The notes below the pieces were generated by a model, which worked only from the letters and a program-made list of their open reading frames with translations, did not search any database and was not told the origin of the DNA. DNA of 42,229 nt. Source: Loktanella sp. (GTDB taxonomy: Bacteria; Pseudomonadota; Alphaproteobacteria; Rhodobacterales; Rhodobacteraceae). Positions 12,743-35,219 of the stretch are shown here, one piece after another; positions within the stretch are counted from its first letter, which is position 1; each line of letters opens with the position of its first letter. The translations under genes and the position numbers were made by a program. The stretch covers positions 1 through 42,229 of the forward strand of contig JAIVHI010000004.1 in assembly GCA_020201155.1 (NCBI GenBank), written 5' to 3'.

Positions 12743-14047
12743 ATGGCCGATCTGACGACTGACTTTCTGGGCATCAAGAGCCCGAACCCGTTCTGGCTGG
12801 CGAGTGCCCCGCCGACGGACAAGGAATACAACGTCCGCCGCGCCTTCGAGGCCGGCTGGGGCGGTGTCGTCTGGAAAACGCTGGGAGCCGAAGGGCCACC
12901 GGTCGTGAACGTCAACGGCCCGCGCTACGGCGTGATCTACGGCAAGGACCGCACGGTTCTGGGGATCAACAATATCGAGCTGATCACCGACCGCCCGCTC
13001 GAGGTGAACCTTGAAGAGATGGCGCGGGTCAAGGCGGACTACCCCGATCATGCGTTGATCGCGTCGATCATGGTCCCGTGCGAGGAAGAGGCGTGGAAAG
13101 CGATCCTGCCGCGGGTCGAGGAAACCAATGCCGACGGGATCGAACTGAACTTTGGCTGCCCGCACGGGATGGCCGAGCGCGGAATGGGCAGTGCCGTCGG
13201 GCAGGTTCCCGAATACATCGAAATGGTCACGCGCTGGTGCAAGAAATACTACGACCGCCCTGTGATCGTGAAGCTGACGCCGAACATCACCGATGTCCGC
13301 AAGCCTGCGCTGGCGGCCAAGAACGGTGGTGCGGATGCGGTCAGCCTGATCAACACGATCAATTCCATCACCTCGGTCGATCTGGATGCCATGTCGCCGC
13401 AGCCGATGATCGACGGTAAAGGCACGCATGGCGGCTATTGCGGCCCTGCGGTCAAGCCGATCGCGATGAACATGGTGGCCGAGATCGCGCGCGATCCGCA
13501 GACCCACGGGTTGCCGATTTCCGGCATCGGCGGTGTGACCACGTGGCGCGATGCGGCAGAGTTCATGGCGCTGGGCTGCGGCAACGTGCAGGTCTGCACC
13601 GCGGCGATGACCTATGGCTTCAAGATCGTGCAGGAAATGAAGTCCGGCCTGTCGCAATGGATGGACGAGAAAGGCTATCGGTCCACCTCGGATTTTGTCG
13701 GGATGGCCGTGCCGAACGTGACGGACTGGCAGTATCTGAACCTGAACTACGTGACCAAGGCGCGCATCGACCAGGACAGCTGCATTTCCTGCGGGCGCTG
13801 CTATGCCGCTTGCGAGGATACCTCGCATCAGGCGATCGCGATGTCTGACGACCGCACCTTTACCGTGATCGACGAGGAATGCGTCGCTTGTAACCTGTGC
13901 GTCGATGTCTGCCCGGTCGAAGACTGCATCACGATGGTCGAACTGCAGCCCGGAGCGATCGACCCGCGGACGGGAAAGGAGGTTCAGAAGGAATATGCCA
14001 ACTGGACCACGCATCCGAACAATCCGGGGGCAGTTGCCGCCGAATGA
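12743..14047 (+). CDS. pydA: Dihydropyrimidine dehydrogenase, catalytic subunit
   Basis: 434 residues, equivalent to E. coli PreA and the C-terminal half of the mammalian enzyme. An FMN-binding TIM barrel carries the active-site loop ELNFGCPHGMAERGMG; C139 corresponds to the catalytic cysteine of dihydropyrimidine dehydrogenase. The C-terminal ferredoxin domain binds two [4Fe-4S] clusters through C347, C350, C353, C357 and C380, C383, C386, C390. It reduces uracil and thymine with electrons from PydX. Third gene of the pydX operon; followed by a convergent inverted repeat. Confidence 0.94.
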   Translation: MADLTTDFLGIKSPNPFWLASAPPTDKEYNVRRAFEAGWGGVVWKTLGAEGPPVVNVNGPRYGVIYGKDRTVLGINNIELITDRPLEVNLEEMARVKADYPDHALIASIMVPCEEEAWKAILPRVEETNADGIELNFGCPHGMAERGMGSAVGQVPEYIEMVTRWCKKYYDRPVIVKLTPNITDVRKPALAAKNGGADAVSLINTINSITSVDLDAMSPQPMIDGKGTHGGYCGPAVKPIAMNMVAEIARDPQTHGLPISGIGGVTTWRDAAEFMALGCGNVQVCTAAMTYGFKIVQEMKSGLSQWMDEKGYRSTSDFVGMAVPNVTDWQYLNLNYVTKARIDQDSCISCGRCYAACEDTSHQAIAMSDDRTFTVIDEECVACNLCVDVCPVEDCITMVELQPGAIDPRTGKEVQKEYANWTTHPNNPGAVAAE

Positions 14048-17001: not shown

Positions 17002-18192
17002 ATGTCCACCAAAGTCATCAAGAACGGAACCATCGTCACGCACGATCTGACCTACGAGGCCGACGTGCTGATCGAGAACGGCCAGATCATCGAGATCGGC
17101 AAGGGATTGAGCGGGGATGAAACGCTCGACGCCACCGGCTGCTACGTCATGCCCGGCGGGATCGACCCGCATACGCATCTCGAGATGCCCTTCATGGGCA
17201 CCTATTCGACCGACGATTTCGAATCCGGCACGCGAGCGGCCTTGGCGGGCGGCACGACGATGGTCGTGGATTTCGCGCTGCCCAGCCCCGGGCAAGGGCT
17301 GCTCGACGCGATTCAGATGTGGGACAACAAGTCGGGCAAGGCATCCTGTGACTATTCCTTCCACATGGCGGTGACATGGTGGGGCGAACAGGTCTTTGAC
17401 GAGATGGAAACCGTCGTGCGCGAGCGCGGCATCAACACGTTCAAGCATTTCATGGCCTACAAGGGCGCGTTGATGGTGCAGGACGACGAGATGTATGCGT
17501 CCTTCCAGCGGCTGTCGGAACTGGGTGCCATTGCGATGGTCCACGCCGAAAACGGCGACGTGGTGGCGGACCTGTCGGCCAAGCTGCTGGCCGAGGGCAA
17601 CACCGGCCCCGAAGGTCACGCCTATTCCCGCCCACCGCAGGTCGAGGGTGAGGCGACGAACCGCGCGATCATGATCGCGGACATGGCGGGCGTTCCGCTT
17701 TATGTCGTCCACGTGTCGTGCGAGGACAGCCACGAGGCGATCCGGCGCGCGCGCCAGCAGGGCAAGCGGGTCTGGGGCGAGCCCCTGATCCAGCATCTGA
17801 CACTGGATGAAAGCGAATACTTCAATCAGGACTGGGACCACGCCGCGCGGCGGGTCATGTCGCCGCCGTTCCGCAACAAGGAACATCAAAACTCGCTCTG
17901 GGCCGGGCTGCAAAGTGGCAGCCTCAGCGTCGTGGCCACGGACCACTGTGCCTTTACGACCGACCAGAAGCGCTATGGCGTGGGCGACTTCACCAAGATC
18001 CCGAACGGCACCGGCGGTCTTGAAGACCGGATGCCGATGCTTTGGACGAACGGCGTGGCGACGGGGCGGCTGACGCCCAACGAATTCGTCGCCCTGACCT
18101 CGACCAACATCGCCAAGATGGAATGCGGTCTGACCGTCGTCACAGCCCGCCCGGATTTCCGGGCCGAACCGAGGCGCCGTGCCAGCCTATGA
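17002..18192 (+). CDS. pydB: Dihydropyrimidinase, C-terminally truncated
   Basis: A D-hydantoinase/dihydropyrimidinase that opens the dihydrouracil ring. All metal-centre residues are here: H57 and H59 (PHTHLEMP), carboxylated K154 (MAYKGAL), H181 (VHAENGD), H237 (VVHVSC) and D314 (ATDHCAF). The homology stops abruptly at TSTNIAK (residues 366-372). There a normal protein continues for roughly 90-110 residues, including the GSDAD-type barrel-closing part. Instead, 24 unrelated residues ending RRRASL follow to the stop. At 396 residues it is well short of the usual ~480. A deletion that removed the 3' end is the likely cause. The stop overlaps the next gene by ATGA. Ribosome binding site AAGGGAG is at 16988-16994. 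Activity is doubtful. Confidence 0.88.
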   Translation: MSTKVIKNGTIVTHDLTYEADVLIENGQIIEIGKGLSGDETLDATGCYVMPGGIDPHTHLEMPFMGTYSTDDFESGTRAALAGGTTMVVDFALPSPGQGLLDAIQMWDNKSGKASCDYSFHMAVTWWGEQVFDEMETVVRERGINTFKHFMAYKGALMVQDDEMYASFQRLSELGAIAMVHAENGDVVADLSAKLLAEGNTGPEGHAYSRPPQVEGEATNRAIMIADMAGVPLYVVHVSCEDSHEAIRRARQQGKRVWGEPLIQHLTLDESEYFNQDWDHAARRVMSPPFRNKEHQNSLWAGLQSGSLSVVATDHCAFTTDQKRYGVGDFTKIPNGTGGLEDRMPMLWTNGVATGRLTPNEFVALTSTNIAKMECGLTVVTARPDFRAEPRRRASL

Positions 18193-18968
18193 GCGCCCCC
18201 GTCATCACCGCCAAATCGCTCGACCTGACGTTCCAGACGAATGACGGCCCCGTCCATGCGCTCAAGGACGTGAGCCTTGATATCGCCAAGGGTGAATTCG
18301 TCAGCTTCATCGGGCCGTCGGGGTGCGGCAAGACCACCTTCCTGCGCTGTATCGCGGGGTTGGAGCAGCCGACGGGTGGCGCGATCAGCGTCAATGGCAT
18401 GACACCGGACGAGGCGCGCAAGGCGCGGGCTTACGGTTACGTCTTTCAGGCGGCAGGGCTTTATCCCTGGCGCACCATTGGCGGGAATATCCGCCTGCCG
18501 CTGGAAATCATGGGGTTCGACAAGTCCGATCAGTCCAAGCGGGTGAACCGCGTGCTGGAACTGGTGGACCTTGCCGGGTTCGAAAAGAAATACCCGTGGC
18601 AATTGTCGGGGGGCATGCAACAGCGGGCCAGTATCGCGCGGGCGCTGGCCTTCGATGCCGACATCCTGCTGATGGACGAACCCTTTGGCGCTTTGGACGA
18701 AATCGTGCGCGATCACCTGAACGAACAGCTTCTGGAGCTTTGGGCGCGGACGGAAAAGACCATCGGCTTCGTGACCCATTCGATCCCCGAAGCGGTCTAC
18801 CTGTCCACCAAGATCGTCGTCATGTCCCCGCGACCGGGCCGGATCACCGATGTGATCGACAGCCCGCTGCCCAGGGAACGTCCCTTGGATATTCGCGACA
18901 CACCCGAATTCATCGAAATCGCCCACCGCGTGCGCGATGGGCTGCGGGCGGGTCATGTGGATGACTAG
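18189..18968 (+). CDS. ABC importer ATP-binding protein (pyrimidine/thiamine-precursor type)
   Basis: 259 residues of the NitT/TauT/SsuB ATPase family. Walker A is GPSGCGKTT (42-50), the Q-loop VFQAAG, the signature LSGGMQQRAS (139 onward), Walker B ILLMDEPFG (E164), and the switch His is in FVTHSIPEA. It energises the two-permease importer that follows. Its place behind dihydropyrimidinase suggests uptake of uracil, thymine or a related base, but the substrate is inferred from context only. ATG overlaps the preceding stop. Confidence 0.92.
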   Translation: MSAPVITAKSLDLTFQTNDGPVHALKDVSLDIAKGEFVSFIGPSGCGKTTFLRCIAGLEQPTGGAISVNGMTPDEARKARAYGYVFQAAGLYPWRTIGGNIRLPLEIMGFDKSDQSKRVNRVLELVDLAGFEKKYPWQLSGGMQQRASIARALAFDADILLMDEPFGALDEIVRDHLNEQLLELWARTEKTIGFVTHSIPEAVYLSTKIVVMSPRPGRITDVIDSPLPRERPLDIRDTPEFIEIAHRVRDGLRAGHVDD

Positions 18969-18980
18969 GGTTCGCACGTC

Positions 18981-19931
18981 ATGAAGGGCAAGGTGCTTCC
19001 CGTTTTGACGGTCGTCCTTGCGATCATCGTCCTTTGGTATGCCGCCGTCGTGCCGATGAACGTCAAGGAGGTGCTGACGCAGGCCGAACGGGCGGGGGCC
19101 GAGGTCGTGCCGCCGTCGGCGGCGGACCGGCGCGATGCCTCGCGCTGGGCGCTGATCTTCGCCAATACCAGCCACCTTGGCGATAGCTGGTCGATGGAGC
19201 GGGCGCGACTGCCCGCGCCACATCAGGTGGTCCAGGAACTTTGGGTCAGCACATGGGAGGAAGAGGTGAACGGCCGGCGCGGGATCGTGCAGTCGGGCAG
19301 CTTGTCGAACCGCAGTCTTGTCTATCACGCCGGGATCACGCTGAGCGCGACGGTTCTGGGGTTTGCCATGGGGGCGGTCGCCGGTGTGCTGCTGGCCATC
19401 GGGATCGTCTATTCCCGCGTCATGGACCGCAGCGTGATGCCTTGGGCCATCATCAGCCAGACGATTCCGATCGTGGCGCTGGCACCGATGATCATCGTCG
19501 TCCTGTATTCCGTCGGCCTGTCCGGTGTCGTCGCCAAGGCGGTCATCTCTGCCTACCTGTCGTTCTTTCCGGTGGTCGTGGGGATGGTCAAAGGCTTCCG
19601 GTCGCCCGACGCGATGCAATTGGATCTGATGCAGACCTACAGCGCCAGCAAGGCGCAGTCGTTCTGGAAGCTGCGGCTGCCCGCGTCCGTGCCCTACCTT
19701 TTCGCATCTCTCAAGATCGGCATCGCGGCCAGCCTTGTGGGGGCGATCGTGGGCGAATTGCCGGTGCAGCGCGGGGGTCTGGGTGCGCGGATGCTGGGCG
19801 GCAGCTACTATGGCCAGACGGAACAGATCTGGGCCGCGCTTTTCGCAGCCGCGCTGATGGCCGCGGCCCTTGTCTGGTTGATCGGCTGGCTCGAGCGGCG
19901 GACCTTGACCGCAATGGGGGTGCCGCAATGA
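18981..19931 (+). CDS. ABC importer permease 1
   Basis: 316 residues with about six membrane helices. After a first helix (about 5-25), a long periplasmic stretch leads to the core from ~115. The core has the segment from MPWAIISQTIPIV to VVGMVKGF, and the EAA-like loop SFWKLRLPASVPYLFASLKI that contacts the ATPase. It is intact and serves as an internal yardstick for the damaged second permease. It overlaps that gene by ATGA. Confidence 0.9.
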   Translation: MKGKVLPVLTVVLAIIVLWYAAVVPMNVKEVLTQAERAGAEVVPPSAADRRDASRWALIFANTSHLGDSWSMERARLPAPHQVVQELWVSTWEEEVNGRRGIVQSGSLSNRSLVYHAGITLSATVLGFAMGAVAGVLLAIGIVYSRVMDRSVMPWAIISQTIPIVALAPMIIVVLYSVGLSGVVAKAVISAYLSFFPVVVGMVKGFRSPDAMQLDLMQTYSASKAQSFWKLRLPASVPYLFASLKIGIAASLVGAIVGELPVQRGGLGARMLGGSYYGQTEQIWAALFAAALMAAALVWLIGWLERRTLTAMGVPQ

Positions 19932-20640
19932 CGCTGGTGATCCTCGCCTTGGTGCTTTGGGCTGGCCTGTGGCTGGCGAATGTCTGGCTTGTCCGTCATT
20001 CGACGGTGGCCGGGTTCGCTTCACCGCTTATCTTCGGCGTGACGATCCTGATCGTCTGGGAGCTTCTGGTCAGAGGGCTGGAGGTTCCGAACGTGATCCT
20101 GCCGTCCCCGACACAGGTGGCCGTGACCTTCAGCGAGAATACCGCGACCCTTTGGGCCGATTTCGTCCAGACCATCCTGAAAGGCGCCTTGTCCGGTTAT
20201 GTGATCGGCGCGGGCGCCGCCGTGGTCGTCGCCGTGCTGCTGGACCGGTTCGATTTCCTGCGGCGTGGCCTGCTGCCGGTGTGAACACCATGGCCGGGCT
20301 GCTGGATACCAGTGCCATGCAGCGCGACCTGATGCGGACCTATGGCGCGAAATACTGGCAGACCCTGCTGCACCTGCGCCTGCCTGCGGCGCTGCCGTTC
20401 ATTTTCAACGGGCTGAAAATTTCAGCAACACTGTCGTTGGTCGGCGCAATCGTGGCCGAATTCTTCGGCTCGCCCACCACCGGGCTGGGCTTTCGCATCA
20501 ACGCCTCGCTGGGGCAGTTGGCACTGGATATGGTCTGGGCAGTGATCGTGGTTGCGGCACTGGCGGGGTCTATCTTTTACGGGGTCTTGACCCTTCTCGA
20601 ACGGCGGTTGACCTTCTGGCATCCGTCACAACGCCAATGA
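19928..20640 (+). pseudogene. ABC importer permease 2, disrupted by internal deletion
   Basis: The first frame runs from ATG 19928 through DRFDFLRRGLLPV and stops at TGA 20282-20284. The same protein resumes two bases out of phase, from GTG at 20281, with VNTMAGLLDTSAMQRDLMRTY through to a normal C-terminus FWHPSQRQ. Aligned to permease 1, the MPW/LLPV position joins directly to the VGMVKG/VNTMAG position, skipping about 44 residues that include a core helix. So this is a deletion plus frame loss, not a simple sequencing slip. The EAA loop is in the second part. Import through this system would fail if the sequence is right. Confidence 0.9.
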
Positions 20641-20687
20641 GAGTCGCAAAGACCGGAACGGCACAACAACCAACGGGAGTTTGGACA

Positions 20688-21680
20688 ATGAAGAAACTGA
20701 TGATGGCGGCAGCGGTCGCTTGCGGCATGGGCGGGATGGCACATGCCGAAGCCCACGCAAACGATGTATCGCTGCAATTGCAGTGGGTCACGCAGGCCCA
20801 GTTCGCGGGCTACTACGTGGCGCTGGACAAGGGCTATTACGAGGAAGAAGGGCTGAACGTGACCATACTGCCCGGTGGACCCGATATCGCCCCGCCGCAA
20901 GTGCTGGCTGGCGGTGGTGCCGACGTCATGCTGAACTGGATGCCCTCTGCGCTGGCCGCACGCGAAAAGGGACTGCCGGTGGTCAACATCGCGCAACCCT
21001 TCAAGTCCTCGGGTCTGATGCTGACCTGCTGGAAAGATACCGGCATCGAAAGCGTCGAGGATTTCCCCGGCAAGACCATCGGGGTCTGGTTCTTCGGTAA
21101 CGAATATCCGTTCCTGAGCTGGATGGCGCAGGAAGGTATCTCGACCGACGGCGGTGATGACGGGGTGACGGTACTCAAACAGGGCTTCAACGTCGATCCG
21201 CTGCTGCAGCGTCAGGCCGACTGCATTTCGACGATGACCTACAACGAATACGGGCAGGTGCTGGACGCCGGCGTCAGCCCCGATGAACTGGTGACGTTCC
21301 AATACGAGGACCAGGGTGTCGCAACTCTCGAGGATGGCATCTACGCGCTTGAAGAAAATCTCGATGACCCCGTCTTCGTCGACAAGATGGTCCGTTTCGT
21401 CCGGGCCTCCATGAAGGGCTGGAAGTACGCCGAGGAAAACCCCGAAGAGGCAGCCGAGATCATCATCGACTACGATGAGACCGGCGCTCAGTCCTTGGCC
21501 GCGCAAGAGCGGATGATGACCGAGATCGCGAAGCTGACCGAAGGGTCGAACGGCGCGCTGGCCGAGGAAGACTATCGCCGCACGGTCGACACGCTGCTGG
21601 CAGGCGGGTCCGACCCCGTCATCAGCCAGGAGCCGGAAGGTGCCTGGACCAGCGTCATCACGGATCAGGCTCTGAACTAG
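20688..21680 (+). CDS. ABC importer periplasmic binding protein (NMT1/THI5-like)
   Basis: 330 residues with a cleavable signal peptide (MKKLMMAAAVACGMGGMAHA). The mature protein starts with the typical NMT1/ThiY block LQLQWVTQAQFAGYYVALDKG and continues with YYEEEGLNVTILPGGPDI. This fold binds small planar heterocycles (thiamine pyrimidines, riboflavin, probably nucleobases). Position behind the pyd genes argues for a pyrimidine base. The start follows GGGAG at 20675-20679. A terminator follows the gene. Confidence 0.9.
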   Translation: MKKLMMAAAVACGMGGMAHAEAHANDVSLQLQWVTQAQFAGYYVALDKGYYEEEGLNVTILPGGPDIAPPQVLAGGGADVMLNWMPSALAAREKGLPVVNIAQPFKSSGLMLTCWKDTGIESVEDFPGKTIGVWFFGNEYPFLSWMAQEGISTDGGDDGVTVLKQGFNVDPLLQRQADCISTMTYNEYGQVLDAGVSPDELVTFQYEDQGVATLEDGIYALEENLDDPVFVDKMVRFVRASMKGWKYAEENPEEAAEIIIDYDETGAQSLAAQERMMTEIAKLTEGSNGALAEEDYRRTVDTLLAGGSDPVISQEPEGAWTSVITDQALN

Positions 21681-21810: not shown

Positions 21811-21828
21811 CGGTCACATAAATGTCAG
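21811..21828 (+). promoter_or_regulatory. Possible Pho box before ynjF
   Basis: CGGTCAC-ATAA-ATGTCAG resembles the PhoB box, two CTGTCAY repeats separated by four AT-rich bases. It matches 11 of 14 positions with the correct spacing. It lies 58 bases before the ynjF ATG. I see no convincing -10 element downstream, so this is tentative. Confidence 0.35.
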
Positions 21829-21886
21829 CCTGATTGCCAGTGATGGTGGAGTAGCGCACAAGAGCGCCACGCCATGAGAGACCACC

Positions 21887-22507
21887 ATGCTAGACCGACC
21901 CCTTCGCAAGATCATCGACCCGCCCCTGAACCGGGCCGGGCGTGCCCTTGCCCAGCGGGGGGCGACGGCGGACGGTGTCACGATGGTCGGTCTGGTGCTG
22001 GGCGTGCTGTGCGCCGCGGCGGTGGCGGCGGGGCTGTTCGGGATCGCACTGGTCTTTCTTCTGGCCAGCCGCCTTGCGGACGGTCTGGACGGGGCCGTGG
22101 CACGGGCCACGCGGAAGACCGATTTCGGCGGTTATCTGGATATCGTAGCTGATTTCCTGTTCTACGGGGCGGTGCCTTTTGCCTTTGTCTTGCACGACCC
22201 GGCGGCCAACGGTGTGGCAGGTGCCTTCCTGCTGGCCAGCTTCTACGTCAACGGCACGAGTTTTCTGGGTTATGCCGTTCTGGCCGAAAAGCGGTCGATG
22301 CAGACAATGGAGCAGGGGCAGAAGTCGCTTTATTATTCCAATGGTATCCTTGAGGGGACCGAGACGATCCTGTTCTTCGTGCTGGTCTGCCTGTTCGAAA
22401 CCTATTTCGCGCCGCTTGCGTGGGTATTCGGTGCCCTGTGCTTTGCGACCGCTTTTCTGCGGGTCCATGCGGCCCGACAGATCTTTACCGAGAGGACTGA
22501 CCTATGA
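21887..22507 (+). CDS. ynjF: CDP-alcohol phosphatidyltransferase family protein
   Basis: 206 residues with about six membrane helices. The family signature D-G-x2-D/A-R...G-x3-D-x3-D is complete: DGLDGAVARATRKTDFGGYL followed by DIVAD, near 65-89. The enzyme would transfer a phospho-alcohol between CMP and a lipid or soluble alcohol at the inner membrane; the substrates are unknown. E. coli YnjF is a relative and is also encoded near ynjBCD. Here the gene overlaps ynjB by four bases, tying it closely to the ABC system. Confidence 0.88.
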   Translation: MLDRPLRKIIDPPLNRAGRALAQRGATADGVTMVGLVLGVLCAAAVAAGLFGIALVFLLASRLADGLDGAVARATRKTDFGGYLDIVADFLFYGAVPFAFVLHDPAANGVAGAFLLASFYVNGTSFLGYAVLAEKRSMQTMEQGQKSLYYSNGILEGTETILFFVLVCLFETYFAPLAWVFGALCFATAFLRVHAARQIFTERTDL

Positions 22508-23697
22508 GACATCTTGCGATCCTTGCCACCTTTTTGCCCGGTATGGCGCTGGCCCAGACCGATCCCGCCGACTGGGAGGCCGTGACCGAGGCTGCAGAAG
22601 GCCAGACCGTTTTCTGGAACGCCTGGGGCGGGTCGACGACGACCAATAGTTTCATCCTCTGGGTCGCCGAGCGGGTGAACGAGGACTATGGCGTCACGCT
22701 GGAGCATGTGAAGCTGACCGACACCGCCGACGCCGTCACCCGCGTTCTGGCCGAAAAGCAGGCGGGCGAGGACGATGACGGTGCCATCGACATGATCTGG
22801 ATCAACGGGGCGAACTTCGCCGCGATGAAAGAGCAGGACCTGCTTTTCGGTCCTTTCGCGGAACAGTTGCCGAACTGGCAATACGTCGATGTGGACGGCA
22901 AGACGGTGCAGACCGATTTCACGGTTCCCGTGGACGGGTACGAGGCACCATGGGCGATGGCGCAGGTCGTTTTCGACTATGACAGCGAAGACGTGTCGCC
23001 GATGGGTTCGATGCAGGAGATACTGGAATGGTCCAAGGCCAACCCCGGACGTTTCACCTATCCCCAGCCGCCTGATTTTCTGGGCACGACGGTTTTGAAA
23101 CAGATTCTCGTGGACGTGCTGGACGACCCCGCGGTGCTGCAAGAGCCCGCGACGGATGCGAACTACGATGATGTGACAGCACCGCTTTGGGCCTATCTGG
23201 ACGAATTGACGCCGACGCTCTGGCGCGGAGGCGAGGCCTATCCGCCGACCGGCACGGCGATGTTTCCGCTGATCGCCGATGACGAGATCGATCTGTCGAT
23301 CTCGTTCAGCCCCGGTGCGGCGTCGGCGGCGATCGCCAACAACGAACTGCCGCCCAGCGTGCGGACCTTCGTTCTGGACAAGGGCACGATCGGCAACGCG
23401 TCCTTCGTGGCCATTCCCTACAATTCCGGATCGAAGGAAGGCGCCATGGTCGTGGCGAACTTCCTGATGTCGCCCGAAGCGCAGGTGCGGGCGCAGGACC
23501 CCGATGTGCTGGGCTACGGCACCGTGCTCGACGTCGCGTCATTGCCGGACGGGGACAGGGCCGCGTTCGAAGCGCTGGACCTGGGCATCGCCACGCTTTC
23601 GCCCGAAGAGTTGGGCACGGTTCAGGCGGAACCACACCCCAGCTGGATGACCCGCATCGCGGACGACTGGGCGCGTCGCTATGGCGTGTCCCAGTAA
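22504..23697 (+). CDS. ynjB: ABC transporter substrate-binding protein YnjB
   Basis: 397 residues with a signal peptide (MRHLAILATFLPGMALAQ). The mature start VFWNAWGGSTTTNSFILWVA and later LDKGTIGNASFVAIPYNSGS fit the YnjB group of iron/spermidine-type binding proteins. The ligand is not known to me. First component of a complete importer (ynjB, ynjC, ynjD), all overlapping or close, led by ynjF. Confidence 0.88.
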   Translation: MRHLAILATFLPGMALAQTDPADWEAVTEAAEGQTVFWNAWGGSTTTNSFILWVAERVNEDYGVTLEHVKLTDTADAVTRVLAEKQAGEDDDGAIDMIWINGANFAAMKEQDLLFGPFAEQLPNWQYVDVDGKTVQTDFTVPVDGYEAPWAMAQVVFDYDSEDVSPMGSMQEILEWSKANPGRFTYPQPPDFLGTTVLKQILVDVLDDPAVLQEPATDANYDDVTAPLWAYLDELTPTLWRGGEAYPPTGTAMFPLIADDEIDLSISFSPGAASAAIANNELPPSVRTFVLDKGTIGNASFVAIPYNSGSKEGAMVVANFLMSPEAQVRAQDPDVLGYGTVLDVASLPDGDRAAFEALDLGIATLSPEELGTVQAEPHPSWMTRIADDWARRYGVSQ

Positions 23698-23757
23698 AGG
23701 ATGCACGGATGACAGGTGGACGAAATCGCCTTTCCCGGCCGGGCCAGACGGTCTGAC

Positions 23758-25449
23758 ATGCGGAGGCGCTTTCTGCCCGTTCTTCCGGCGCTGACGCTCG
23801 TCGTCATGCTTGGCCCCGTGATCGCGGGGCTTTACGGAACGGTTCTGCCCGCTTTCGGGCATCTGCCCGCGGCAGGTCTGAGCGGACCCACTCTGGATCC
23901 GTGGCGTGCGCTTTTCGACTGGCCGGGCATCGGACGGGCGGTGGCCTTGTCCGTCACGGTCGGGATGGGGGCGACCGTGACGGCGCTGACGCTGGTGATG
24001 CTGCTGACCGCTGGCTGGTCCGGCACGCGGGCGTTCAAGGCGCTGGAGCGTCTTTTGTCGCCGCTTCTTTCCGTGCCTCATGCGGCAGCAGCCTTTGGGC
24101 TGGCCTTTCTCATCGCGCCCTCGGGCTGGATCGCGCGGGCGACTTCGCCCTGGTTGACCGGATGGGACAGGCCACCGGATCTGCTGATCGTGCAGGACGG
24201 CTGGGGCCTGTCGATGATGGCCGGGTTGATCATCAAGGAGGTGCCGTTCCTTTTGTTGATGACGCTGGCGGCCTTGGGGCAGTCCGACGCGTCCCGCGCG
24301 GCGCTGGTGTCGCAGTCGTTGGGCTACGGGCGGGTCACTGGCTGGCTCAAGGCGGTGTTCCCGCGCGTCTACCGCCAGATCCGGTTGCCGGTCTACGTCA
24401 CGCTGGCCTACGCCATGAGCGTCGTGGACGTGGCGCTGATCCTTGGGCCGAATACGCCGGCGCCGCTGTCCGTGCAGATCGTGCGCTGGATGTCGGACCC
24501 CGAGATTGCCGCGCGGCTGGTTGGCGCGGCGGGGGCGCTTTTGCAGTTGGGCCTTGTGGTCGCGGCCCTGCTGGTCTGGTGGATGGGCGAGCGCGTGGTG
24601 GCACGCCTGGGCTGCCTGTGGGTCGAAAGCGGGGCGCGGGGTCGTCTGGACCGGCCCGTCGCGGCGGTCGGGCTGGGCGGTGGAGCCTTGTCCGCTGCGG
24701 CGGTGTTGCTGGGGCTGGCGGTCCTGACGGTCTGGTCCTTCGCGGCCTACTGGGGCTTTCCCGACGTGCTGCCCGACGGTCTGACCTTCGCGAACTGGGA
24801 AAGGCATCTGCGCGGGGTCGTGGCGGCTGCCACCGATACGGTTCTGATCGCCAGCCCCGTCGTGGCCGTGGCAGTGGTCTTGACCATCGGGTGCCTTGAA
24901 GCCGAATACCGTCATGGATTGACCCTGTCCCAGCGCGGGATGTGGCTTTTGTACCTTCCCTTGCTTATTCCGCAGGTGGCCTTCCTTCCCGGATTTCAGA
25001 TCTTCCTGCTGAACATGGGTGCGGACACCGGTCACCTGCCGGTGATGGTGGCGCATCTGGTTTTCGTGCTGCCTTACGTTTTCCTGTCGCTGGCCGATCC
25101 GTTCCGGGCGTGGGATGCGCGGGTGGGGACCGTTGCGGCGGCCTTGGGTGCGTCACCGAACCGGGTGCTTTGGGGGGTTCGCCTGCCGATGCTCTTGCGG
25201 CCCGTGCTGACGGCGATGGCGGTGGGCATCGCGGTGTCGGTCGGGCAATATCTGCCGACCCTGCTGATCGGTGGCGGGCGTGTCGCGACGTTGACGACAG
25301 AGGCTGTGGCGCTGTCGTCCGGTGGAGATCGCCGGGCGATTGGTGTCTTCGGGTTGATCCAGACGGCGGCGGCGTTGGTGCCATTCGCTCTGGCGCTGGC
25401 CATTCCCGCCATCGTCTGGCGCAACAGGAAAGGACTGCGGCATGGCTGA
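23758..25449 (+). CDS. ynjC: ABC transporter permease YnjC (fused two-domain)
   Basis: About 563 residues with two copies of the binding-protein-dependent permease domain in one chain, about 12 helices. Each half has an EAA-type loop: SQSLGYGRVTGWLKAVFPRV in the first and AALGASPNRVLWGVRLPMLL in the second. This two-domain form is normal for YnjC. The start is uncertain. ATG 23758 begins a sensible first helix but lacks a good ribosome binding site. A GTG at 23716 is in frame. A 15-codon open frame from ATG 23709, preceded by AAGGA, ends one base before ATG 23758 and may drive translation by coupling. It overlaps ynjD by eight bases. Confidence 0.86.
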   Translation: MRRRFLPVLPALTLVVMLGPVIAGLYGTVLPAFGHLPAAGLSGPTLDPWRALFDWPGIGRAVALSVTVGMGATVTALTLVMLLTAGWSGTRAFKALERLLSPLLSVPHAAAAFGLAFLIAPSGWIARATSPWLTGWDRPPDLLIVQDGWGLSMMAGLIIKEVPFLLLMTLAALGQSDASRAALVSQSLGYGRVTGWLKAVFPRVYRQIRLPVYVTLAYAMSVVDVALILGPNTPAPLSVQIVRWMSDPEIAARLVGAAGALLQLGLVVAALLVWWMGERVVARLGCLWVESGARGRLDRPVAAVGLGGGALSAAAVLLGLAVLTVWSFAAYWGFPDVLPDGLTFANWERHLRGVVAAATDTVLIASPVVAVAVVLTIGCLEAEYRHGLTLSQRGMWLLYLPLLIPQVAFLPGFQIFLLNMGADTGHLPVMVAHLVFVLPYVFLSLADPFRAWDARVGTVAAALGASPNRVLWGVRLPMLLRPVLTAMAVGIAVSVGQYLPTLLIGGGRVATLTTEAVALSSGGDRRAIGVFGLIQTAAALVPFALALAIPAIVWRNRKGLRHG

Positions 25450-26080
25450 CGGGTTGGAACTGCGCGAAGTCGCCATCGCGAAGGGCGGTCAGCCGCTGGT
25501 TCGGCTGGATTGCGTCATCGCACCCGGCGATGTGCTGACGGTCATGGGTCCGTCGGGCGTGGGGAAATCGACCTTGCTGGCCTATGTGACCGGCACCCTC
25601 CCGCCGGCGTTTACTGCAACAGGTCGGGTGCTGCTGGACGGGGAAGACATCACCGATGCACCGCCTCATCAACGACGGGCCGGAATCCTGTTTCAGGATG
25701 ACCTGTTGTTTCCGCATCTGTCGGTGGGTGCGAACCTGGCTTTCGGTCTGCGCAAGGGTGGCAGCCGCGCCGACCGCAAGGCCCGTGTCGATGAGGCGCT
25801 GGAGCAGGTCAACCTTGGCGGTTTCGCGGACCGTGACCCCGCGACGCTGTCGGGAGGACAGCGCGCAAGGGTGTCCTTGATGCGTGTTCTGCTGTCCGAA
25901 CCCGGAGCGCTTCTGCTGGACGAGGCGTTCTCGCGGCTCGATACCGTATTGCGGGCCCAGGTGCGGGAGTTGGTCTTTCAACGCGCGCGCGAAATGCGGT
26001 TGCCTGTTCTGATGGTCACCCATGACGCCGATGACGCGGCGGCGGCGGCGGGGGTCGTGGTCACGTTCGGGGCCGATTGA
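25442..26080 (+). CDS. ynjD: ABC transporter ATP-binding protein YnjD
   Basis: 212 residues. Walker A is GPSGVGKST, the Q-loop FQDDLLFPHL, signature LSGGQRARVSL, Walker B LLLDEAFSRLD and switch His in MVTHDADDA. It is a compact ATPase without a C-terminal regulatory domain, the same size as E. coli YnjD. Last gene of the ynjFBCD unit; 118 bases separate it from thuA. Confidence 0.9.
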   Translation: MADGLELREVAIAKGGQPLVRLDCVIAPGDVLTVMGPSGVGKSTLLAYVTGTLPPAFTATGRVLLDGEDITDAPPHQRRAGILFQDDLLFPHLSVGANLAFGLRKGGSRADRKARVDEALEQVNLGGFADRDPATLSGGQRARVSLMRVLLSEPGALLLDEAFSRLDTVLRAQVRELVFQRAREMRLPVLMVTHDADDAAAAAGVVVTFGAD

Positions 26081-26198
26081 AAGACCCGCGTTTCTGCCGT
26101 TTTCCCGGATGGTAAATGCCGCGATCGAGCCAATTTCGCCTTGAAGGTGCTCTGGAAGATAGACAAACGTGGCCCAAAGCGATTTGGAGAACCGAACT

Positions 26199-26984
26199 AT
26201 GACTATCAAAGCTGTCGTCTGGGGCGAGAACGTTCACGAACAAACCAACAAGGTCGTTGCGGATATCTATCCCGACGGGATGCATGGCGCGATAGCTGCC
26301 GCTTTGAATGCCGATAAGGGTATCACGGCCACGACGGCGACCTTGCAGGAGCCCGAACATGGGCTGACGGGTGAACGGCTTGCCGACACCGATGTTCTGC
26401 TTTGGTGGGGTCATGCCGCGCACGGCGATGTGTCCGACGAGGTGGTCGAGCGTGTGGCCGAGGCGGTCTGGTCCGGCATGGGCCTGATCCTGCTGCATTC
26501 CGCGCATTTCGCGAAGCCGTTCAAGCGGCTGATGGGCACGCCCTGCAATCTGACCTGGCGCGAGGCCGGAGAGCGCGAACGCCTGTGGGTCACCACGCGG
26601 GGCCACCCGATCGCAAAGGGTCTGCCGGATCATTTCGAGCTGGAAAACGAAGAGATGTATGGCGAGCCTTTCGGCGTGCCGGAACCACTGGAAACCGTGT
26701 TCGTCAGTTGGTTCCAGGGGGGCGAGGTGTTCCGGTCCGGCCTGACCTACCGCCGGGGTCTGGGGAATATCTTCTATTTCCGCCCCGGTCACGAAACCTA
26801 TCCCACCTATCACGATGCAAACGTCCAGACGGTGCTGAAGAACGCCGTGCACTGGGCGCATAACGAACAGCGCCTGACCGGCGACGTGAATGCGGCACCC
26901 AACGTGCCGGTGGACGCGGCGCTGGAGCCGATCGAGGAACGCGGACCGCGGCTGCATCAGGACGGCGAAGAGGGCTATCGCTGA
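26199..26984 (+). CDS. thuA: ThuA-family protein (trehalose utilisation type)
   Basis: 261 residues of the ThuA family, a glutamine-amidotransferase-like fold. The start [32 protein letters not shown] and [18 protein letters not shown] are characteristic. In rhizobia, thuA and thuB act together in use of trehalose and related disaccharides via 3-keto intermediates. The start ATG follows GGAGA (26185-26189). TGATG links it to the next gene. The thuEFGK importer of rhizobia is not next to it here. Confidence 0.85.
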
Positions 26985-28033
26985 TGGTGCGTCTCTTGAT
27001 CGTGGGCACCGGCGGCATGGCGCACGCCCATGCCATGGCCTTTGCCGAGATGGAGAATGTCGAGCTGGTCGGCGGGGTCGATACCAACCCCGAAAACCTG
27101 CATGCCTTCAACGCAGAGTTTGGCATCCGCCATGCCTTCGACAGCGTGGAGACGGCGATCGAATGGGGCGAATTCGACGCTGTCACCAACGTGACGCCCG
27201 ATGCGATCCATTATCGGACCACCATGCCGTTCCTGAAGGCCGGCAAGCACGTGCTTTGTGAAAAACCGCTGGCGTCGAATTACGCGGACGCCGCCGCCAT
27301 GGCCGATCTGGCCGAAAGCGCGGGTGTCGTGAACATGGTGAACCTTACCTACCGGAATGTGCCTGCGATGAACGAGGCAGCCAAGATGGTGACAGCCGGT
27401 GCCATCGGCGAGGTCCGGCACTTCGAAGCGTCCTATCTGCAAAGCTGGCTGACCCAGCCCGCGTGGGGAAATTGGATGACCGAAGACCAGTGGCTATGGC
27501 GCTTGTCGTCGCAGCACGGGTCGTTGGGCGTGCTGGGCGACGTGGGTGTCCATATCCTTGACTTCGCGACCTTTGTGGCCGGTGCCAAGGTGGCCGATCT
27601 GTCCTGCCGTCTGACGACCTTCGACAAGGCCGAAGGTGGGCGGATCGGCGACTATGTGCTGGACGCGAACGACAGTTTCAACATGCACCTTGCGCTGGAC
27701 AACAAGGCCGTCGGCGTGATCCACGCCAGCCGGATGGCGTCGGGGCATCTCAACGATCTGCGACTGCGTATTTTCGGCACGAAGGGCGGTCTGGAAGTGA
27801 TGTACGAGCAGAACCAGACCCGCCTGCGCGTCTGCCTGGAGCCCGACCTGATGGAGGGGCGCTGGGAGTTTGTCGAAACACCGCTTGTCAGAACGAATTA
27901 CCAGCGGTTCATCGATGCGATCGTGACGGGCGAAAAGGTCCGCCCGGATTTCACGCGTGGGGCAAGCCTTCAGGCTGCCCTTGACCGTGCGGTCGAGTCC
28001 CATGCCGATTGCGGGCGCAGCCTGACGGTCTGA
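26984..28033 (+). CDS. thuB: ThuB-like oxidoreductase (Gfo/Idh/MocA family)
   Basis: 349 residues. The N-terminal Rossmann loop is LLIVGTGGMAHAHAMAF and the lysine motif CEKPLASN lies near 93-100. The C-terminal part, including GSLGVLGDVGVHILDFATFV, is typical of disaccharide 3-dehydrogenases. Coupled to thuA by a one-base overlap, it probably oxidises trehalose or a related sugar (or reverses that step). It is about 46 residues longer than, and clearly distinct from, the galactose dehydrogenase near 10 kb. Confidence 0.84.
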   Translation: MVRLLIVGTGGMAHAHAMAFAEMENVELVGGVDTNPENLHAFNAEFGIRHAFDSVETAIEWGEFDAVTNVTPDAIHYRTTMPFLKAGKHVLCEKPLASNYADAAAMADLAESAGVVNMVNLTYRNVPAMNEAAKMVTAGAIGEVRHFEASYLQSWLTQPAWGNWMTEDQWLWRLSSQHGSLGVLGDVGVHILDFATFVAGAKVADLSCRLTTFDKAEGGRIGDYVLDANDSFNMHLALDNKAVGVIHASRMASGHLNDLRLRIFGTKGGLEVMYEQNQTRLRVCLEPDLMEGRWEFVETPLVRTNYQRFIDAIVTGEKVRPDFTRGASLQAALDRAVESHADCGRSLTV

Positions 28034-28093: not shown

Positions 28094-29527
28094 ATGCCCA
28101 TCCCTGCCACCGCGATCCTGTTCCACCCCGACGCCATCGAAAGCGAAGGGGCGTCACTCGTGGGGCGAAGGTCGTCCGGGCAGTCGTTTCTGCGCGGCTA
28201 TCTGGACCATGGCTGCGGGGACACGATCAATGCGGTCGTCAGGGAGCGAAAGCATGGCGCGGCGTTTCGCAAGGTTCTTGAAGGGCTCAAGGAGACCCGC
28301 CCCAGCACTGTTCTGCCGCTGCACGCGGACGCGGGCTTTGACGCTTTCGGCACGCTCTTCTTTCCCGGACCCGGCATGATGTCCGCCCCATGGGTCCGTC
28401 AGCACAGAGGAGAGGCGTCCTGTTCGCTGGTCGGGATCACGCATACGGTGTCCACGCGGCGGGTCATGGAGGGGCTGCACACACTGCTGAGCGAACCCGT
28501 CCACCCGTGGGATGCCGTGATCTGCACATCGCGGGCGGTGCATTCCGTCGTCGCCACGCAGTGGGAGCAGGAGGCGGCATTCCTCAAGGACCGTTTCGGC
28601 GCGGCGCGGATGCCGATGCCGCAGCTGCCGATCATTCCGCTTGGGATACATACGCAGGACTTCGCCCCGTCAGGCGTTGAGCGCAAACGCCTGCGCGACC
28701 GGATGGGTGTCACGGATGACAGCATCGTCGTGATGACGATGGGGCGGCTGACCAGCGTCGAAAAGGCGAACATGTTGCCGCTTTGGCTGGCTCTTGAAGC
28801 GGTTGCACAAAGCAGTGGGCGTGACGTGCATCTGTGGCAGGTCGGCTGGGCCGGTCGCGCGCCGGAACACGACCTGCATGTCGAAGGGCCCAAGACCTAC
28901 TGCCCGTCGGTCACGACCCAAACGCTCGATGGACGCGAACCAGACCTGCGGCGCGGCGTCTGGTCGGCTGCTGATATCTTTACCCTGCCCGTGGACAATA
29001 TCCAGGAAACCTTTGGCCTTGTCCCGGTCGAGGCGATGGCCGCCGGGCTTCCGGTGGTGATGCCCGACTGGAACGGCTTTCGCGACACGGTCGTCGATGG
29101 CAAGACGGGTTTTCTGATCCCGACCACCATGGCCCCGCCTGACCGGCGCATGGGGCGGATCGATGCGATCCGCGCAAAAGCGCAGCCAAGCGCCCCGCTG
29201 CGCCCGCTTTGCATCGATCCTTTCTCGCTTTATCAGGGCTATCCCAGTCGTGCGCTGGCGCAGTCTGACAGGATCGCAAGCCTTCGTCCGCTCGACGCAG
29301 CTTCGCTGAGCGATCTGGATCGCCTGTCAGGTCGTGCGCTTTACAAGCGGCGGGTCCTGCCTGATCCGCAGACGCTGGCGCTGGCCCGGCAAATCGCCGA
29401 AACTGGCGAGACGACGGTGGGTGCCGTGATGGTTGCTTCCCCCTTGAAAGAGGATCAGGTGATCGCCGGGCTGCTGTTTCTGGCCAAGTTCGGTTTTGTG
29501 ACCATCACGCCGCAACAGTCAAAATAA
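28094..29527 (+). CDS. Glycosyltransferase, GT4/GT-B type
   Basis: 477 residues. The C-terminal Rossmann half shows the GT4 E-x7-E pattern in NIQETFGLVPVEAMAAGLPVV and a nucleotide-sugar loop MTMGRLTSVEKANM. The N-terminal half is less familiar. Beyond ~400 the protein has an extra domain ending LKEDQVIAGLLFLAKFGFVT, which could be a small helical or winged fold. The acceptor is unknown. It precedes a cassette of glycan-type genes upstream of the flagellar cluster, so flagellin or surface glycosylation is plausible. Separated from thuB by 60 bases. Confidence 0.83.
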   Translation: MPIPATAILFHPDAIESEGASLVGRRSSGQSFLRGYLDHGCGDTINAVVRERKHGAAFRKVLEGLKETRPSTVLPLHADAGFDAFGTLFFPGPGMMSAPWVRQHRGEASCSLVGITHTVSTRRVMEGLHTLLSEPVHPWDAVICTSRAVHSVVATQWEQEAAFLKDRFGAARMPMPQLPIIPLGIHTQDFAPSGVERKRLRDRMGVTDDSIVVMTMGRLTSVEKANMLPLWLALEAVAQSSGRDVHLWQVGWAGRAPEHDLHVEGPKTYCPSVTTQTLDGREPDLRRGVWSAADIFTLPVDNIQETFGLVPVEAMAAGLPVVMPDWNGFRDTVVDGKTGFLIPTTMAPPDRRMGRIDAIRAKAQPSAPLRPLCIDPFSLYQGYPSRALAQSDRIASLRPLDAASLSDLDRLSGRALYKRRVLPDPQTLALARQIAETGETTVGAVMVASPLKEDQVIAGLLFLAKFGFVTITPQQSK

Positions 29528-33017: not shown

Positions 33018-33836
33018 ATGGCTCAACCCAACTCTCCCATCATCATCAAACGCAAGAAGGTCATCGTCAGCGGCGGTCACCACGGTGGCGCATGGAAGGT
33101 CGCCTATGCGGATTTCGTCACGGCGATGATGGCCTTCTTCATGCTGATGTGGCTGCTGAACGCGACGACCGAACAGCAGCGCAAGGGCATCGCCGATTAT
33201 TTCAGCCCGACCATTCCTTTCAACCGAATCTCTGGCGGCGGTGATGGCGCGCTGGGCGGCGACAGCATCTTTTCACGCGAAATGCTTGCGCAATCGGGCA
33301 GTGGCGGTCTGGGCGAACGCCAGGGTTCGGGCGAAGTGGACATGACCAAGGCAGCCGAAACCGCGCGGTTGCAGGACATAGAGGCCGCGCTGTTGGGGCT
33401 GGGCGGCGAATCAATGCTTGACGACAATGTGCTGCGCCATGTCGTCACGCGCCTGACCGACGAAGGTCTGGTGATCGAACTTTTCGATCGTGCCGAGGGA
33501 AGACTGTTTCTGGACGACACCGCCGAGCCTTCCGCGATGACCCGGTCGATCATCCGGACCTTGGTCAAGGTGGTGGCTGATGAACCCAACGCCATCGCGG
33601 TGACAGGCCATGTTCGTTCGCTTCCGGTCGTGCGGCGCGATCGTGAAGGCTGGACACTTTCCACCGCGCGGGCCGCATCCACGCGCGAGCTTCTGGCGGA
33701 TGCGGGACTGCCCGACAACCGGTTCGCCCGCCAGACGGGAAAGGGCGACCGGCTGCCCGTGACCGCCGATGCCACCGCGCTGCGCAACAACCGGATCGAG
33801 ATCATCCTGTTGCGGGCAGAATCGGAGCGGCGTTAG
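33018..33836 (+). CDS. motB: Flagellar motor stator protein MotB
   Basis: 272 residues. After a basic N-terminus comes one membrane helix with the proton-carrying aspartate D32 in VAYADFVTAMMAFFMLMWLL. The C-terminal OmpA-like domain (about 150-265) binds peptidoglycan; GHVRSLPVVRRDREGWTLS and the final NNRIEIILL belong to it. It forms the stator with MotA, which is not in this window. It opens the rightward flagellar run motB-flgE-flgK-flgL-flgI. Confidence 0.94.
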   Translation: MAQPNSPIIIKRKKVIVSGGHHGGAWKVAYADFVTAMMAFFMLMWLLNATTEQQRKGIADYFSPTIPFNRISGGGDGALGGDSIFSREMLAQSGSGGLGERQGSGEVDMTKAAETARLQDIEAALLGLGGESMLDDNVLRHVVTRLTDEGLVIELFDRAEGRLFLDDTAEPSAMTRSIIRTLVKVVADEPNAIAVTGHVRSLPVVRRDREGWTLSTARAASTRELLADAGLPDNRFARQTGKGDRLPVTADATALRNNRIEIILLRAESERR

Positions 33837-33893
33837 GCGAACCTTAAGAGGCTGGCGTTAGGACGGGGGTGCAACTTGTTGGAAGGGCCCAGA

Positions 33894-35195
33894 ATGACCA
33901 TCTCCTCCTCGCTCAATGCCTCTGTCGCGGGGCTGTCCGCCAATGCCTCACGGCTGGCAACGATCTCGGACAATATCGCGAACTCGTCGACCTTTGGCTA
34001 CAAGCGTGTCGAAACAGACTTTCATTCGATGGTCATTGAAAACGGGGCCGGTGGGTATTCCGCCGGTGGCGTGCGGACGACGGACGAGCGTCTCATCGAT
34101 CAGCGTGGATCACTTGTCACCACGTCCAACCCGACCGATCTTGCCGTGCGGGGGCGGGGCATGTTGCCGGTGACGACCGAAGCGTCCTTGCAGGTTCAGA
34201 ATGGCGATAACCCGATGTTTCTGGCGACCACTGGCTCCTTCCGTACGGATGATCAGGGGTATCTGCGCACCTCGTCCGGTTTGATCCTTATGGGTTGGCC
34301 TGCGATTGCCGATGGAACAATTCCGGCCTACCCACGTGACGCTGTGAACGGGCTGACACCGATACAGATCAATGCCAACCAGTTTGCGGGTGAACCGACG
34401 ACACGCATGGATCTGGCCTTGAACCTGCCGGCCACATCGACAGAGGCTGGTGCAACCGGTGGTGCCGAAACACTGTCGATCGAATATTTCGACAATCTCG
34501 GCAAGTCCGCAAACCTGAGCTTGGATTTCTCTCCGACCGTACCTGCCGCCGGAATGTCCAATGAATGGACGATGACCATAAGCGACAGTGCGTCAGGTGG
34601 TGCTGTTGTGGGGGAATACACGCTGACCTTCGATGATACGCGCGGGGCAGGTGGCACCCTGCTCGATGTCACCGCGACGACCGGCGGCGCCTATGATCCG
34701 GTGGAAGGAACGATCGACGTCGCCGTCAACGGGGGGCCGCTGACGATCGGCGTCGGTACACCCGGATCATCCGTGGGCATGACACAACTGTCCGATGCGT
34801 TTGCACCCACCTCGATTTCGAAGAACGGGACATCGGTGGGAAGCTTGACCTCGGTCGAAGTCGACGCGAACGGCTACGTCCGTGCGTCATTCGATTCCGG
34901 GATCAACCGCATTCTCTACCAGGTCCCCTTGGTCGATGTGCCGAACGTGAACGGATTGGAGGCAATGGACCGGCAGACCTATGCCATTACCCCGGACAGC
35001 GGGTCCTTCTTTATGTGGGATGCCGGGGATGGTCCGACAGGTGATCTCGTCGGATATGCCCGCGAGGAATCGACGACTGACGTTGCAGGCGAATTGACCA
35101 ATCTGATCCAGACCCAACGGGCATATTCATCCAATGCCAAGGTCATTCAGACGGTCGATGAAATGCTCCAGGAAACCACCAATATCAAACGCTGA
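33894..35195 (+). CDS. flgE: Flagellar hook protein FlgE
   Basis: 433 residues. The N-terminal rod/hook signature is SLNASVAGLSANASRLATIS followed by DNIANSSTFGYKR. The C-terminal partner helix is LTNLIQTQRAYSSNAKVIQT. The middle is the usual variable, Thr/Gly-rich hook region. Length is normal for Rhodobacterales. The ATG before TISSSLN follows GGAAGGG; a TTG six codons earlier is less likely. 24 bases separate it from flgK. Confidence 0.95.
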   Translation: MTISSSLNASVAGLSANASRLATISDNIANSSTFGYKRVETDFHSMVIENGAGGYSAGGVRTTDERLIDQRGSLVTTSNPTDLAVRGRGMLPVTTEASLQVQNGDNPMFLATTGSFRTDDQGYLRTSSGLILMGWPAIADGTIPAYPRDAVNGLTPIQINANQFAGEPTTRMDLALNLPATSTEAGATGGAETLSIEYFDNLGKSANLSLDFSPTVPAAGMSNEWTMTISDSASGGAVVGEYTLTFDDTRGAGGTLLDVTATTGGAYDPVEGTIDVAVNGGPLTIGVGTPGSSVGMTQLSDAFAPTSISKNGTSVGSLTSVEVDANGYVRASFDSGINRILYQVPLVDVPNVNGLEAMDRQTYAITPDSGSFFMWDAGDGPTGDLVGYAREESTTDVAGELTNLIQTQRAYSSNAKVIQTVDEMLQETTNIKR

Positions 35196-35219
35196 ATCTG
35201 ACCGGCGAAAGGACATGAG

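Follow-up and report, generated by a model that had tools for sequence, protein, structure and literature searches.

A recurrent unit of a CDP-alcohol phosphotransferase and an ABC importer, ynjFBCD, in Loktanella sp. and its conserved putative promoter

The window analysed here is a stretch of 42,229 nucleotides that makes up one contig (JAIVHI010000004.1) of the draft genome of Loktanella sp. (3.69 Mb in 342 contigs), whose close named relatives are Rhodobacteraceae and place it in the class Alphaproteobacteria. Four open reading frames (ORFs) of this window, ynjFBCD, encode a member of the cytidine diphosphate (CDP)-alcohol phosphotransferase family and a full ATP-binding cassette (ABC) importer, and they follow a direct repeat that is conserved ahead of ynjF in related genomes. 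The pairing of ynjF with ynjB is not chance, and it recurs in several gene orders. The unit is tentatively read as a small envelope-lipid module, in which an alcohol or its precursor would be imported, attached by YnjF to a CDP-lipid and placed under the control of an OmpR-family regulator. No function was found assigned to YnjF or YnjBCD in the open-licence literature searched, which agrees with a first-pass annotation of the same DNA that had called the system unassigned.

Structure of the unit and recurrence of the pairing

The first-pass annotation described a CDP-alcohol phosphotransferase gene coupled to a full ABC importer, with a repeat upstream, and the ORFs, their overlaps and the upstream site are confirmed as first described (Table 1). 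The stop codon of ynjF and the start codon of ynjB share the letters ATGA, an overlap of 4 bp, and ynjD starts within the last 8 bp of ynjC. The same annotation proposed a gene-neighbourhood survey of ynjF with ynjBCD, and this survey bears the partnership out. Eighty named loci were collected via YnjF similarity, mostly labelled as Rhodobacteraceae or as genera of that family, and ynjB adjoins ynjF in 53 of them (44 co-directional and nine divergent); as the collection took those nearest in YnjF to the window, the adjacency counts are not those of a random sample. A sample of relatives consisting of 61 genomes (the window's own and 60 others) contains YnjF in 24 genomes at E<1e-39 and YnjB in 15 at E<1e-100. 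Fourteen of these 15 genomes also have YnjF, with the two genes adjacent in 11 of the 14, and four further genomes of the 61 encode a more distant YnjB relative with 36–37% identity. The class-wide sample of 289 genomes from the window's class (E<=1e-25 for YnjF and E<=1e-50 for YnjB) has YnjF in 67 genomes and YnjB in 53. The two coincide in 41 genomes where 12.3 would be expected, which corresponds to an odds ratio of 27.6 (p 1.6e-21 by Fisher's test, a calculation that ignores genome kinship). It follows from the co-occurrence and adjacency counts that genomes tend to carry ynjF and ynjB together and that some lineages have the two genes physically linked.

The order F-B-C-D of the window is also present on a Paracoccus plasmid and a Pseudooceanicola plasmid. 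An order with ynjF divergent from ynjBCD is seen among the named loci, the order B-C-D-F is carried by an E. coli IncC plasmid (with overlap) and by Pseudoalteromonas, and E. coli K-12 and Klebsiella have ynjBCD followed by ynjE and a convergent ynjF. The two parts lie apart in the one Sinorhizobium record examined. This variation of gene order with lineage argues against the simple inheritance of one old arrangement.

YnjF is a member of the CDP-alcohol phosphotransferase family

The ynjF gene product belongs to PF01066 (39.6 bits, cut-off 22), and its catalytic residues, D-G-x-D-G-x2-A-R...G-x3-D-x3-D, are invariant in the family alignments. The AlphaFold model (predicted local distance difference test, pLDDT, of 87) finds AF2299 and phosphatidylinositol-phosphate synthases as its best PDB matches, and these proteins share both the fold and the catalytic motif residues with YnjF. 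The spacing within the motif differs, however, as AF2299, the mycobacterial enzymes and DIPPS have one residue more between AR and G. This interval is seven residues long throughout the YnjF family (20/20 and 34/34 alignment rows, with the window's row in both), and by eye it has the same length in E. coli YnjF. None of three equivalog cut-offs is reached by YnjF: archaetidylinositol-phosphate synthase (57 against 180 bits), phosphatidylinositol-phosphate synthase (31 against 170 bits) or phosphatidylserine synthase (30 against 107 bits). The gene was also not found in the open-licence literature on its enzyme family, among the matches listed.

Residue K146 and the motif EG-x-ET (156–160) of YnjF are invariant in a diverse alignment, whereas the structure alignment places KR and DER of the A. 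fulgidus DIPPS where YnjF carries EG-x-ET. Phosphatidylinositol-phosphate synthases have phosphate-binding arginines. Because EG-x-ET replaces the KR and DER of DIPPS, a phosphorylated-inositol acceptor is doubtful, and we weakly infer that the acceptor of YnjF would not be a phosphorylated inositol.

The YnjBCD importer

The solute-binding protein YnjB matches NF008633/PRK11622 with 535 bits at a cut-off of 203. Profile search identifies a BPD_transp_1 domain in YnjC and an ABC ATPase match in YnjD; the best NCBIfam model for YnjC is PhnV and the second best for YnjD is PhnT, both from phosphonate importers and both below their cut-offs. The YnjB model (pLDDT 88) has as its nearest folds the binding protein STM0429, which we take to be a PhnS-type protein, FutA1, PotD, AfuA and metal-citrate binders. 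Binders of the PotD/FutA/AfuA/STM0429 type resemble YnjB in fold (TM-score to the query of 0.55–0.66 over the 50 matches listed) but are only 11–17% identical to it in these matches, and no solved structure is related to YnjB by sequence at E<=0.01.

Prediction of the ligand from the YnjB fold was dropped, as the ligands of its fold neighbours are too varied, including polyamines, iron, citrate, hexose phosphates and other compounds. Thiamine import was also rejected, with ThiP at 19 against 679 bits, ThiQ at 153 against 245 bits and no thiamine pyrophosphate (TPP) riboswitch in the window or at seven further loci.

A conserved putative promoter upstream of ynjF

The direct repeat lies 58 bp ahead of the ynjF ATG. 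Alignment of the window with the 80 named loci reveals a footprint, TCAC[AG]TTCN[CT]GTCAG-N3-GATTGC (consensus TCACRTTCNYGTCAG-N3-GATTGC), in 34 of the 81 upstream regions at a threshold of 12 bits; 99% of shuffles score below 4.9 bits under this matrix, which was trained on the sequences that it scores. The 34 regions comprise the window, 30 of the 44 co-directional loci and three of the 27 loci with ynjF alone, and the nine divergent loci contribute none. The sequence SACAAS follows TTGCGC at exactly 17 bp in 19 of the 34 regions and at 15–19 bp in 20, against 9% in the shuffled control. The two hexamers are read as putative -35 and -10 elements; most alphaproteobacterial promoters are described as lacking the usual last T of the -10 element (PMC8407463). 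The repeat is part of this conserved promoter and lies just upstream of the predicted -35/-10 pair.

Table 1. The ynjFBCD unit of the window and the elements upstream of it
Feature	Position	Strand	Description
TCA-N8-TCA direct repeat, CGGTCAC-ATAA-ATGTCAG	21811-21828	+	putative OmpR-family regulator site; aligned footprint in 34/81 upstream regions
putative -35, TTGCCA (family: aTTGCgc)	21834-21839	+	conserved in footprint alignment
putative -10, CACAAG, no T at last position	21857-21862	+	SACAAS-like, 17-bp spacer
ynjF	21887-22507	+	CDP-alcohol phosphotransferase family, 206 aa
ynjB	22504-23697	+	ABC solute-binding protein, 397 aa
ynjC	23758-25449	+	ABC permease, 563 aa; alternative upstream GTG start at 23716 possible
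ynjD	25442-26080	+	ABC ATPase, 212 aa

PhoB and CenR models of the repeat

The first-pass annotation had taken the repeat for a Pho box and proposed phosphate control on that basis. A PhoB matrix was built by scanning 25 pstS-type loci, 17 of which provided 29 18-mers (some overlapping and all consensus-picked, which inflates their self-scores) and eight of which were dropped; the Pho repeats of several relatives approximate CTGTCAT-AAAA-CTGTTAC-N4-CTGTCAC. This matrix gives the pstS sites a mean of 19.5 bits, with a 10th percentile of 12.5, and the 34 ynjF sites a mean of 3.0; 29 of these 34 do not reach that percentile, and only four keep the TG ahead of the first half-site. Two of the eight dropped loci, one of the window's own genome (L233) and L253, serve as held-out checks and score 19.3 and 22.6 bits. 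The matrix is therefore functional, and both loci exceed the window site at 14.4 bits. The former gene has Pho repeats at 19.3 and 17.0 bits, and for a second pstS-type gene of this genome the contig extends only 31 bp upstream. No Pho-type repeat was found ahead of ynjF in S. meliloti or E. coli. A Pho-consensus pattern search of the window's genome with up to three mismatches was set aside as uninformative (237 matches against 81 for the reversed pattern).

A CenR matrix was built from 31 published CenR sites, 28 of which are reported to lie directly upstream of a -35 element (PMC9275681). This is the placement of CenR sites at activated genes, and the repeat ahead of ynjF has it too. The 34 ynjF sites average 9.2 bits under this matrix, against 8.8 bits for true CenR sites left out singly, and the best CenR match coincides with the footprint in 30 of the 34 ynjF upstream regions. 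At least 8.8 bits are reached in 28 of the 81 upstream regions, against 5.3 expected. The likeness is visible in the letters of the published CenR sites of exoP (TCACGATCCTCTCAG) and rpoH1 (TTACATTCGCGTGAT) beside the ynjF sites of L070 (TCACGATCTCGTCAG) and L054 (TCACATTCGTGTCAG). Position 4 is C in 32 of the 34 ynjF sites and in 28 of the 31 CenR sites, and T or C in Pho sites. A response regulator of the window's genome (L228) has a CenR-like site 77 bp ahead of its own gene, and it is this site on which its assignment as CenR rests.

VTT/DedA-type and flavin proteins in a wider module

In several places, the unit lies beside a VTT (DedA/TVP38)-domain protein that is fused or next to a mercuric-reductase-like (MerA-like) flavoprotein (PF09335 with PF07992 and PF02852). 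The 60 loci taken around YnjB places, of which 50 come from the class sample (53 such places in all) and 10 from relatives, include 11 with ynjF within 4 kb and six with a MerA-like protein within that distance, and all six also have ynjF within 4 kb. The second flavoprotein of the module is related to TIGR03169 'Nterm_to_SelD', reaching 369 bits in Pseudooceanicola at a cut-off of 310; the related protein of an E. coli plasmid scores 287 bits, below the cut-off. None of the extra module genes occurs in the 80 named loci (E<=1e-10) or in the window (1e-6). The DedA proteins of COG0398 are reported to be fused to such flavoproteins, and eukaryotic DedA proteins are described as phospholipid scramblases (PMC10127716); the available text of that source makes no mention of YnjF or YnjBCD.

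The wider module, with VTT/DedA-type and MerA-like proteins, ynjF and ynjBCD, is present at L264, L266, L267, L268 (plasmid stretches), L276–L279, L313 and L314, although L279 has the MerA-like part without a VTT match. Several of these loci add a TIGR03169-related oxidoreductase and a sigma factor, and an E. coli IncC plasmid (L264) is among the carriers. An IS150-family insertion separates the VTT-type gene from its flavoprotein partner in this plasmid (L264 1712-5302), so the fusion is broken there; other enterobacterial plasmids among the matches listed keep it in one piece. DoxX, DUF692 and DUF2282 proteins are annotated near the wider module (L264 917-1420; L267 1006-2976), and the DoxX protein of L264 has a weak match, below cut-off, to a copper-binding-peptide maturation model.

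Proposed function and alternatives

The proposed module would work as follows. YnjBCD would import a small polar compound, possibly an alcohol or amino-alcohol, or the precursor of such a compound, and YnjF, in the inner membrane, would transfer the phosphatidyl group of CDP-diacylglycerol onto the alcohol to yield a minor phospholipid. The first-pass annotation likewise supposed that the importer brings in an alcohol or head group used by YnjF, or a lipid-related compound; the import of the YnjF acceptor and the synthetic direction of the reaction are both predictions. In Rhodobacteraceae, the operon would be read from one promoter activated by an OmpR-family response regulator, with CenR, the essential envelope regulator, as the leading single candidate. 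The VTT/DedA-type proteins near the unit in other genomes provide a lipid context and were counted in favour of the envelope-lipid reading. A bolder version, which we regard as speculative and rather unlikely in its entirety, makes YnjF and YnjBCD a dedicated import-and-attach system that builds an external alcohol directly into an as yet undescribed phospholipid, as its head group, and that enterobacterial plasmids carry as well; the VTT/DedA-type protein and the two flavoproteins that sometimes accompany it would then move and redox-treat the product or its precursor, and Rhodobacteraceae would have placed the system under envelope-stress control. Every part is from a known family, and E. 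coli carries YnjF and YnjBCD too. The conserved importer-enzyme pair and the wider module may offer a way to find a novel head group and possibly also a new branch of envelope control.

Several counts weigh against this reading. In 27 of the 80 named loci, ynjF is carried without ynjB on the available stretch (some of these contigs are short), and around these 27 genes no family apart from ynjF itself recurs in more than six. YnjF is absent at the threshold used from 12 of the 53 class-sample genomes with YnjB, and the listed coordinates place ynjF and ynjB within 4 kb in only four of the 41 genomes with both; YnjF therefore does not need an adjacent importer. A YnjBCD that imports thiamine, a polyamine or a metal complex unrelated to YnjF chemistry, the genes being joined by a shared envelope or stress role and one regulator, is on the doubtful side of possible. 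It would accommodate the diverse ligands of the YnjB fold neighbours, the frequent absence of ynjBCD beside ynjF and the presence of flavoprotein oxidoreductases and a sigma factor in the module elsewhere. It fits less well with the repeated adjacency in several gene orders and a co-occurrence 3.3 times the expectation, and its thiamine variant with the lack of a TPP riboswitch (window and seven loci) and the unreached ThiP and ThiQ models.

The identity of the regulator affects the envelope-lipid reading as well. A PhoB-controlled unit, serving lipid remodelling or the scavenging of a phosphorus-containing compound under phosphate limitation, is quite improbable, although the site of the window taken on its own speaks for it. 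Its 14.4 bits lie within the pstS range and are matched by none of 3000 versions of the 150-bp upstream region with shuffled dinucleotides (the CenR score is matched by 0.7%), so the site is more than chance; five of the 81 regions reach at least 12.5 bits under the PhoB matrix against 0.07 expected, PhoB is encoded in this genome (L223, TIGR02154, 340 bits, cut-off 296), and phosphonate-importer models rank high for YnjC and YnjD, below cut-off. The Pho-box-like site is conserved in relatives as a repeat and largely not as a Pho box, and phosphate control is disfavoured for the family while the window's own site keeps it in play. The case against PhoB rests on the low Pho scores of the relatives and on the box lying ahead of a distinct -35 element, not on the CenR score. 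The annotated link to lipid remodelling also loses ground: the likeness of YnjF is to phospholipid-making enzymes, a role that taken alone does not agree with the sparing of phosphorus.

The CenR matrix, which carries about 11 bits, is itself unspecific: it gives the 29 pstS 18-mers a mean of 7.6 bits, with 14 of them at 8.8 or more, and a Pho repeat of the window's genome 11.3. This acceptance of Pho boxes lowers the odds of CenR. CenR sites of at least 9 bits precede only seven of 30 tolQ and 10 of 30 rpoH genes in relatives (no shuffle control), and position 13 is C in 23 of the 34 ynjF sites and in 15 of the 29 Pho sites, as against G in 24 of the 31 CenR sites. The site may instead belong to an OmpR-family regulator other than CenR or PhoB, such as ChvI or the regulator at 2799-3497, with the module otherwise as proposed; this complete alternative is unlikely. 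Ten Trans_reg_C matches in the genome, nine of them over cut-off, offer candidates, among them L225, which we take to be ChvI-like, and the 11-bp pitch of the repeat is common to PhoB and CenR sites, whose features the ynjF sites mix. On the other side, the footprint agrees with published CenR sites in spacing and position, and the Caulobacter ChvI motif is given as TTGC-N3-GCAA, which differs (PMC9731502). For the regulator of ynjF alone, an OmpR-family protein outside CenR and PhoB is a serious candidate at somewhat below even chances, CenR is a plausible choice with the balance against it, and PhoB is improbable. Seen in a single genome, a TCA-N8-TCA repeat can evidently pass for a Pho box even though relatives drop the Pho letters.

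Neighbouring genes in the window

Two regions upstream of ynjF, 12743-14044 and 18042-21680, hold a gene of pyrimidine-degradation type (729 bits to the PreA model) and an ABC importer of the NMT1 family. The cargo of this importer may be a pyrimidine and not a thiamine precursor. The response regulator at 2799-3497 is of the OmpR family (best model OmpR, 228 bits, below the cut-off of 331) and is adjoined by a histone-deacetylase-family protein at 3677-4597. Directly downstream of ynjD are a ThuA-family protein and a Gfo/Idh-type dehydrogenase (26193-28033), then a glycosyltransferase (28094-29527). Flagellar-type genes are found at 33018-36353, encoding a MotB-type protein, an FlgE-type protein and a flagellar rod C-terminal-domain protein with a weak FlgK match.

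Comparison with known systems

The ynjF promoter resembles the CenR sites of the CenKR two-component system of Rhodobacter sphaeroides in that a direct repeat, TGA/TCA-N8, immediately precedes the -35 element, whereas most ynjF sites have GTCA and not GTGA as the second half-site. The published Table 1 of the CenKR regulon has no CDP-alcohol phosphotransferase annotated in it (PMC9275681). The E. coli K-12 genes ynjABCDE and ynjF (b1753-b1758) are preceded by the DedA-family genes ydjX/ydjZ, which lie just upstream. BaeR is an envelope-stress regulator. Its overexpression in E. coli weakly induces ynjABCD, an effect that the authors of the report think indirect (PMC2731931). The first-pass annotation stated that E. 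coli has the same neighbours as the window, and this holds in so far as ynjBCD and ynjF are close on the K-12 chromosome, with YnjB 44% and YnjF 50% identical to the proteins of the window. It does not extend to their arrangement, since ynjE intervenes and ynjF is convergent in K-12, whereas in the window ynjF comes first and overlaps ynjB.

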